From contig NZ_MUFB01000001.1 in the NCBI RefSeq assembly GCF_001996005.1, positions 239,354 through 288,997 on the forward strand: 49,644 bases of DNA, read 5' to 3'. A program made the translations under genes and the position numbers. Below the pieces are notes generated by a model that searched no databases, was not told the DNA's origin, and saw only the letters and a list, made by a program, of their open reading frames with translations. Positions 26,200 to 28,258 of the stretch are shown piece by piece. Within the stretch, counting starts at the first letter, position 1; each line of letters opens with the position of its first letter. The stretch is from Salinivibrio siamensis. GTDB taxonomy: Bacteria; Pseudomonadota; Gammaproteobacteria; Enterobacterales; Vibrionaceae.

Positions 26200-27150
26200 T
26201 TACCCTAATTTCTCCGCCACGCGTAACACCGAGCTACGCGCACGCGCATTGTGTTCCACCTCTTTCGCAGAGGGCTTAACCGCCTTACCAATCGGTTTCA
26301 TCGCGGCTGAGCCCATCTCGGCAATTTGTGCTTCGGTTAAAGGCACCCCTTTAGGCACGTCTGGGCCTTTGCTTTGTTTGCGAATAAAGCGCTTCACCAT
26401 CCGATCTTCTAACGAGTGAAAGCTGATCACAGACAAACGGCCACCGGGGGCGAGGCTTGCCAACGCGCCTTGCAGCGCGTGCTCAATCTCATCGAGCTCG
26501 CTGTTGATATAAATGCGGATCGCTTGGAAACTGCGCGTTGCCGGGTGTTTTTTCTTTTCTCGAAACGGCACCGCATTATCAATCAACTTGGCCAGTTGGT
26601 TGGTAGTAGACAGCGCCGGCGCCTCCTCGTCCTCGCGATGGCGGACAATCGCATTAGCAATCCGGCGAGCAAAACGCTCTTCGCCAAACACTTTTAACAC
26701 CCAAGCAATGTCATCTGGGCTGGCAGTTTCTAACCACTGCGCCGCTGACTGACCAGAACTCGGATCCATGCGCATATCCAAAGGGCCGTCATGCATAAAG
26801 CTGAATCCGCGGCTAGGATCATCCAACTGCGGAGACGACACGCCAAGATCGAGCAAGATCCCATCGACTTTTTCACTCAAGCCACGTTCACTCAAGTAAG
26901 TTTCAATGTCAGAAAACGGCCCATGGATAATATGAAAGCGGGGATCGTCGATGGTGTTGGCTTCTTCAATCGCACGAGGGTCGCGATCAATGGCGTATAA
27001 GCGCCCGTTCTCACCCAGTTGAGACAAAATATGACGGGAGTGACCGCCGCGACCAAAGGTACCATCGACATAAATGCCGTCTGGCTTTATCGCAAGGCCG
27101 TCTACCGATTCGTTCAATAGGACGGAAACATGGGTATATTGTTCTGACAT
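26200..27150 (-). CDS. rsmH: 16S rRNA m4C1402 methyltransferase RsmH
   Basis: This 316-residue SAM-dependent enzyme (formerly MraW) methylates N4 of C1402 in 16S rRNA, working with RsmI. Both are encoded in this window (rsmI at 28313-29170). The SAM-binding motif is [16 protein letters not shown], followed by [21 protein letters not shown] in two conserved blocks, and then the C-terminal signature around [13 protein letters not shown]. It is the second gene of the dcw cluster, 16 bases after mraZ. Confidence 0.97.
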
Positions 27151-27166
27151 AAGTTCACTTCATTAT

Positions 27167-27625
27167 TTACAGAGAGAGGTCTGCTAACCGCTCACTGATC
27201 ATCGGGGTTGATTCCGCCTGTGTGTCCATATCCTGGCGAATTTGTGCCTGCCATGTTTGCTCATCCCAAATCTCAAACTTGTTGAGTTGGCCCACCAGCA
27301 TCGCTTTGCCCTCAAGCCCCGCATATTGACGCAACGCCGCAGACAGCAAGAGTCGCCCTTGGCTATCCATCTCACAATCAAACGCATGACCGAGTAGCAA
27401 CCGCTGTAAACGCCGTTCTGCTGGCTGAAAGCTCGATAGCTGTGCAAGCTTATCTTCTATCACTTCCCACTCAGGCACAGGATACAAGGCCAAACAAGGG
27501 AGCTGATGATCGATCGTGCACACAAACTGGCCGTCACAATGGTTAATTAAGCCATCGCGATAGCGAGTGGGTAGGGCGAGTCGCCCTTTCTTGTCGACCG
27601 ATATGGCACTGACGCCGCGTAGCAT
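27167..27625 (-). CDS. mraZ: Transcriptional regulator MraZ
   Basis: This 152-residue protein has two SpoVT-AbrB-like half domains, each with the DxxxR signature: [14 protein letters not shown] near residue 10 and [14 protein letters not shown] near residue 85. It forms a ring oligomer that binds rows of TGGG-type boxes 10 bp apart and represses its own cluster in E. coli. Just such a row lies directly ahead of this gene (27635-27679). It is the first gene of the dcw operon, with a good promoter upstream. The length equals E. coli MraZ (152). Confidence 0.96.
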
Positions 27626-27634
27626 GGCGCTATT

Positions 27635-27679
27635 TTCCCTTTTTCACCAAGATTATCCACTTTACACCACATTTTCCCA
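27635..27679 (-). promoter_or_regulatory. MraZ operator: five boxes at 10-bp period
   Basis: On the minus strand, boxes TGGGA, TGGTG, TGGAT, TGGTG and GGGAA start every 10 bases (27679, 27669, 27659, 27649, 27639) with 5-base spacers. Spacing and core agree with the known MraZ target (TGGGN repeats with N5 spacers). The row begins at the predicted transcription start and runs to 10 bases before the mraZ ATG. Confidence 0.75.
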
Positions 27680-27685
27680 CCCAGA

Positions 27686-27715
27686 AGTGTACGTAGCAGG
27701 TAAAAAGAAAGTCAA
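27686..27715 (-). promoter_or_regulatory. mraZ (dcw) promoter
   Basis: TTGACT (27715-27710) and TACACT (27691-27686) on the minus strand are 18 bases apart. Transcription would begin about 27679, at the first MraZ box. Confidence 0.7.
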
Positions 27716-27727
27716 GCAAGCCATGAC

Positions 27728-27743
27728 AGTGACAAAGATCACA
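27728..27743 (-). promoter_or_regulatory. Possible CRP site upstream of mraZ
   Basis: TGTGATCTTTGTCACT matches the CRP consensus TGTGA-N6-TCACA at 9 of 10 core positions. Its centre is about 56 bases upstream of the predicted start. The site is plausible but untested. Confidence 0.4.
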
Positions 27744-27837
27744 CTTAGGAAGATTAAACAAGATATTTCAGCGGGTTAATCCTTGAGTTAGCCAATCTGC
27801 TACATGAGGTTATAACCAAATCGTCTGACTCAAACGC

Positions 27838-27871
27838 TGAAAAAGAGAGGGCGAGCCCAAAAGGCTCGCCC
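27838..27871 (-). terminator. Intrinsic terminator of RNase P RNA
   Basis: On the minus strand a perfect 9-bp stem, GGGCGAGCC/GGCTCGCCC (27871-27863 with 27857-27849), is followed by TCTCTTTTTC. It lies 7 bases after the mature 3' end of rnpB. Confidence 0.88.
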
Positions 27872-27878
27872 GATAATG

Positions 27879-28258
<380 letters not shown>

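Follow-up and report, generated by a model that had tools for sequence, protein, structure and literature searches.

A probable MraZ operator at the mraZ promoter of Salinivibrio siamensis: phase, conservation and co-loss with mraZ

In Escherichia coli, MraZ is said to be the repressor of Pmra, a role reportedly described in a 2014 study by Eraso. Read from its sequence, the E. coli row consists of three GTGGG units followed by GGGGTG in register 4. In excerpts of the work on B. cenocepacia, MraZ binds one half of the region upstream of mraZ, namely the half with four repeats placed downstream of the -10 and over the start site, and a gel shift with MraZ was obtained on a 250-bp fragment of PmraBc (PMC7761207). 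In Mollicutes, sections of two reports describe the MraZ site as AAAGTG[T/G] direct repeats in series (PMC8475190, PMC5138195), and in M. genitalium the sole site with these repeats is, according to part of the former report, in the region of the mraZ promoter (PMC8475190). Extracts of a further study describe a sigma-70-dependent backtracked pause with a 14-15-nt RNA at the E. coli mraZ promoter (PMC7876045); by our count, the pause position falls within the MraZ row. No report of an MraZ operator in Salinivibrio was found in the literature searched. Like E. coli Pmra, the mraZ promoter of Salinivibrio siamensis has an 18-bp spacer and a row of units with a 10-bp period directly after the -10.

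Promoter, box row and gene context in Salinivibrio

The row lies between rnpB and mraZ in the window, that is, the whole stretch of 49,644 nucleotides that was analysed. The features of the locus are as follows.

27878 to 28258, minus strand: rnpB (RNase P RNA), the upstream neighbour, from an RNA match
27871-27849, minus strand: terminator-like hairpin at the rnpB end, from a hairpin scan
27728 to 27743, minus strand: CRP-like palindrome TGTGATCTTTGTCACT (TGTGA-N6-TCACT, 9/10), starting 63 nt before box 1
27710 to 27715, minus strand: -35 hexamer TTGACT of the mraZ/dcw promoter, from a promoter scan and conserved in relatives
27686 to 27691, minus strand: -10 hexamer TACACT, spacer 18 bp, from the promoter scan
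27678 to 27680, minus strand: probable transcription start within box 1, placed 6-8 nt past the -10
27677 to 27680, minus strand: predicted MraZ box 1, GTGG core of the unit GTGGGAAAAT, from sequence and locus comparison
27667 to 27670, minus strand: predicted MraZ box 2, GTGG core of the unit GTGGTGTAAA, from sequence and locus comparison
27657 to 27660, minus strand: predicted MraZ box 3, GTGG core of the unit GTGGATAATC, from sequence and locus comparison
27647 to 27650, minus strand: predicted weak MraZ box 4, TTGG of the unit TTGGTGAAAA, its TGG invariant in the nearest genera
27636 to 27640, minus strand: AGGGA, likely Shine-Dalgarno of mraZ, the sole purine-rich candidate before the ATG at 27625
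27167 to 27625, minus strand: mraZ, 152 aa, start at 27625 (TIGR00242, PF02381)
26200 to 27150, minus strand: rsmH (mraW), the next gene of the dcw cluster, from a gene search

An earlier reading of the sequence alone had described a TTGACT-18-TACACT promoter followed by units every 10 bases on the minus strand, and direct reading confirmed these letters: TGGGA at 27679, TGGTG at 27669, TGGAT at 27659, TGGTG at 27649 and GGGAA at 27639 follow each other in 10-base steps. Read with a GTGG core, the units GTGGG, GTGGT, GTGGA and TTGGT begin at 27680, 27670, 27660 and 27650 on the same strand. Box 1 lies 5 nt from the -10, and the placing of the operator at the transcription start also stood, the row beginning at the inferred start. 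The promoter is the single sigma-70-type match in 27100-28200; since 0.7 matches are expected there by chance, its support comes from conservation in relatives and not from the scan. TTGACT or TTGACA is kept as the -35 in relatives, also after loss of mraZ.

The window contains a single TGG-N7-TGG-N7-TGG-N7-TGG, where 0.01 would be expected, and in the 3.44-Mb genome this pattern is found in the row and in one (CTTGG)n microsatellite, which accounts for nine other overlapping matches. The stricter pattern GTGG-N6-GTGG-N6-GTGG has a single occurrence in the genome, which is this row. No further MraZ target was found in the genome with these GTGG and TGG patterns, which are blind to degenerate or two-box sites. 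The microsatellite itself (G000:C6:62678-62750) has about 14 copies and is possibly a phase-variable tract.

The protein encoded downstream belongs to the MraZ family: it scores 169.1 bits against TIGR00242, over the curated cut-off of 98.35, a profile search found two PF02381 domains, and the D..GR of both repeats aligns with solved MraZ chains. Its nearest named loci are those of S. sharmensis, S. costicola, S. proteolyticus, S. socompensis and Salinivibrio sp. ES.052, with 89-99% identity.

The CRP-like palindrome (9/10) upstream of the promoter is shared by all six Salinivibrio upstreams in the comparison and by Photobacterium sp. JCM 19050 (L071). Weaker palindromes (7-8/10) stand at equal distance in 9/15 listed upstreams of genus g3, and no CRP-like palindrome was found at the 63-nt distance in the upstreams of g8 (g8, g10 and g12 are probably Photobacterium, Aliivibrio and Vibrio, respectively). 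With its centre some 56 bp ahead of the inferred start, the palindrome does not fall at the class I or class II CRP activator positions, and CRP activation is therefore not claimed. E. coli K-12 has a 9/10 match to the CRP-type pattern, TGTGACTGGCTTGACA, that overlaps the Pmra -35.

The row is conserved in loci encoding MraZ

We compared 210 MraZ-encoding loci, comprising the window, 80 named best matches, 49 loci from the same family, E. coli K-12 and 79 loci from the order, class and phylum. The order, class and phylum searches gave best-scoring matches only; the loci are not a random sample, and Gammaproteobacteria and good matches are over-represented among them. Removal of 27/210 loci as duplicates in the row region left 183 distinct loci. 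A row was called at a three-unit score of at least 10 of 12.75, and a threshold of 11 was used in the tree analyses. A threshold of 8 was dropped: all 210/210 loci pass it and the shuffle mean is 7.6, so that it is uninformative and counts are given at 10 or 11.

The three-unit row was present in 179/183 distinct loci, compared with 5/915 dinucleotide shuffles. Periodicity in relatives was the check that the sequence-only reading had put forward for a 10-bp-phased MraZ operator, and its conservation in these loci supports that proposal. The MraZ operator of E. coli and Burkholderia would thus be near-universal among the sampled MraZ-encoding proteobacterial loci. Four of the 183 loci fall below the threshold (L119, L234, L249 and L270, of which L119 retains two boxes), and the full row is therefore not strictly needed. 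A promoter-like match was found in 175/183 loci, with an 18-bp spacer in 130 of the 175 and a distance of 5-9 nt from the -10 to box 1 in 141 of them.

Position by position, the conservation follows the TGG of the boxes. Among 20 distinct sequences from the three nearest genera (g1, g3 and g7), invariant columns in units 1-4 comprise 11/12 of the TGG positions vs 8/28 of the others (Fisher p 0.0003), and box 1 follows the -10 at a distance of 4 to 6 nt while the box spacing is fixed at 10. In the same 20 sequences, unit 4 has an invariant TGG behind a variable first base (0.50); unit 5 is kept there as AGGG, not as TGG, its second position being G and not T in 0.95. The fifth box of the earlier reading was not upheld: in the window this unit also reads AGGG, with 2/4 matches to GTGG where at least 3/4 was asked of a fifth in-register unit, it is likely the Shine-Dalgarno, and an in-register unit 5 in 14/170 loci is nothing special. 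With the pattern broken at this unit, the sequence supports a row of four and not of five.

An in-register unit 4 (at least 3/4 to GTGG) occurs in 70/173 loci, vs about 4-5% at neighbouring off-register offsets; by group, the counts are 21/37, 33/71, 7/26, 9/26 and 7/19. With a fourth unit this frequent, with GGGGTG in register 4 of E. coli, and with four repeats over the start site already published for B. cenocepacia (PMC7761207), the suggestion that the Salinivibrio row is specially long did not survive. Nor is it specially degenerate, as had also been proposed: its boxes match GTGGG x3 at 13/15 positions, a common class that holds 72/179 loci, while E. coli, with 15/15, is among 10/179 loci and is the extreme one. 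The graded response that the same reading drew from degenerate boxes would be conjecture.

Boxes 1 and 2 are the strongest and most constant of the row, and box strength declines away from the start site in the sampled gammaproteobacterial groups. GTGG is followed by G in 0.73 of loci at unit 1, in 0.57 at unit 2 and in 0.27 at unit 3. The family, relatives, order and class sets all show this trend and the phylum set shows the reverse, and we did not accept a fifth-base gradient as a rule for MraZ rows in general. As a motif, TGGGN is better replaced by a GTGG core with a relaxed fifth base, an A/T-rich spacer and often a weak fourth unit. An in-register unit ahead of box 1 (at least 3/4 match) was found in 31/179 loci. 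In class-level loci such as L224-L227, L230 and L232, the -10, TATAGTGT, holds a GTG in register one unit ahead of box 1, and the row therefore starts within the -10.

Many relatives that encode Dam have the sequence GTGGATC at one of the boxes, usually box 3, which places a Dam site inside the predicted operator. Of the 166 third boxes with a GTGG core, 72 have this heptamer, where the base frequencies taken separately predict 28.2. TGGATC was found in register in 22/40 loci with dam above the cut-off vs 1/39 without dam. Inside the order it is present in 18/31 loci, dam being found in every sampled genome, and outside the order in 4/9 dam-positive vs 1/39 dam-negative loci (p 0.003); GATC further upstream shows no difference (15/40 vs 16/39). 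Such rows might be tuned elements that also carry a replication signal, the Dam methylation state altering MraZ binding, in which case methylation after fork passage could couple dcw transcription to replication. We consider this reading improbable: the association of TGGATC with dam is concentrated in lineages related to each other, and the phylum-wide set shows no fifth-base gradient, both of which count against it. The Salinivibrio row is without GATC though the genome encodes Dam, the sole nearby GATC lying within the CRP-like palindrome. In the literature searched, nothing was found on a link between mraZ and GATC or Dam methylation. As a separate observation, GATC is dense in the mraZ leaders of many relatives, among them L023, L024 and L040 (179 in 16.6 kb vs 153 in 33.8 kb further upstream), and is often inside box 3; the leader of Rheinheimera riviphila (L023) has 8 sites within 144 nt.

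Boxes are lost together with mraZ

In the same family, an MraZ match was found in 51/150 genomes, including one weak and broken match (G002), and was missing in 99/150, with rsmH present in 150/150. None of the sampled g10 and g12 genomes has an MraZ match, and g8 is split. The region upstream of rsmH was examined in 50 of the 99 genomes without an MraZ match and in G002, and the two loci with mraZ remnants (L132 and L133) were counted apart from the mraZ-less ones. Among the same-family upstreams without MraZ or a remnant, 1/49 reaches a score of 10 (L144, with two intact boxes). Outside the family, elsewhere in the phylum, the figure is 1/22 (L283); this set came from 32 genomes, of which 9 without an rsmH match and L295, with a partial rsmH, were dropped. 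The remnant loci score 7.25 (L132, G002) and 8.5 (L133, G021). Both belong to reduced g3 genomes, of 2.1 Mb (G002) and 2.6 Mb (G021); one of the two mraZ remnants contains stop codons, and the boxes have decayed in both.

The split in g8 allows a comparison within one group. Twenty distinct mraZ-less segments retain TTGACA-N17/18-TACACT, and their boxes score 5-10 of 12; the 31 distinct mraZ-bearing segments score 7, 11, 11 and, 28 times, 12 (rank test p 4e-10, on sequences that are not independent). On an rsmH tree, mraZ changed state at least 5 times, and 4/4 supported independent pairs were concordant with the row (p 0.125). A wider rsmH tree (139 tree rows, 17 changes), for which the states of 23 same-family tree rows were carried over by hand from the first tree, gave 6/6 concordant supported pairs (p 0.031); on it, 6 mraZ-bearing entries lack the box row at the threshold of 11. 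Part of the co-loss could come from one deletion removing gene and row together, but in g8 the promoter persists while the boxes decay. Across genomes, these sequence comparisons suggest that the row depends on MraZ. Vibrionaceae relatives without mraZ offer a natural experiment in which boxes decay and the promoter persists, and which ties the boxes to the protein without bench work.

Predicted mode of action and comparison with known systems

Judged from the sequence, the row is very probably an MraZ operator, and it is likely that it serves for MraZ autorepression at the promoter of mraZ and the dcw cluster; binding and repression at the row would follow by analogy with the literature on other species. 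An MraZ oligomer would contact successive GTGG boxes on one helix face, one per 10 bp, with three strong boxes and one weak fourth as contacts. The row runs from the inferred start to about +34, and bound MraZ would occupy DNA that the polymerase needs for opening and leaving the promoter. mraZ, rsmH and the following genes would be turned down in proportion to MraZ, as in negative autoregulation. The start site, the steric exclusion and the binding of the Salinivibrio MraZ to the row are what we infer.

By the geometry, RNA polymerase would cover boxes 1-2 and end before boxes 3-4, which makes steric exclusion the likeliest main mechanism, on which we place moderate confidence, and a downstream roadblock possible. 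In a roadblock, the mechanism put forward in the sequence-only reading, the polymerase would start and then be halted by MraZ on boxes 3-4 (about +21 to +34), which lie past the usual open-complex edge if the start is where we place it. The E. coli mraZ promoter is moreover already slow in early elongation through the sigma-70-dependent pause, as described in part of one report (PMC7876045). We nevertheless regard a roadblock as unlikely: boxes 1-2, the strongest and most constant, sit where the polymerase must sit, which favours exclusion, and unit 4 is absent in 103/173 loci at the 3-of-4 threshold.

Two other views take MraZ out of the explanation of the row, and both appear very improbable. 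The row might be no more than the initially transcribed sequence, its form set by promoter escape and by the ribosome-binding site, as its beginning at the inferred start and the probable Shine-Dalgarno in place of a fifth unit would allow. Yet 20 distinct mraZ-less segments keep the promoter without the boxes, so that the promoter does not need them, and in g8 the row sits about 90 nt upstream of the mraZ start codon, away from any ribosome-binding site. The G-rich row might instead be a G-quadruplex element in the mraZ leader: Staphylococcus aureus has one downstream of its mraZ promoter, and such motifs are conserved in various bacteria, according to sections of one report (PMC11796246). 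For the Salinivibrio DNA we rejected this candidate, as there are three GGG runs only and no four-run motif; moreover, what is conserved is GTGG repeated at exactly 10 bp, and the boxes with their G-runs decay upon mraZ loss while the promoter persists. The G-richness of such mraZ promoters may often be that of MraZ boxes.

Among the described systems, as far as the cited extracts go, PmraBc of B. cenocepacia resembles the Salinivibrio promoter in its four repeats of 10-bp period after the -10, each made in PmraBc of 7 nt and a 3-nt spacer. The repeats overlap the mapped start in PmraBc, and the Salinivibrio row overlaps an inferred one; the fourth unit of Salinivibrio is weaker. The Mollicutes site, in the parts of the reports consulted, likewise lies in the region of the mraZ promoter and is made of direct repeats that have GTG as their core, but it differs in its consensus, AAAGTG[T/G], and belongs to a far phylum. 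The Salinivibrio row is a good example of a published kind of control element and not a new one, to which this analysis adds the co-loss of gene and row, the relaxed motif and the Dam GATC inside the boxes of relatives.
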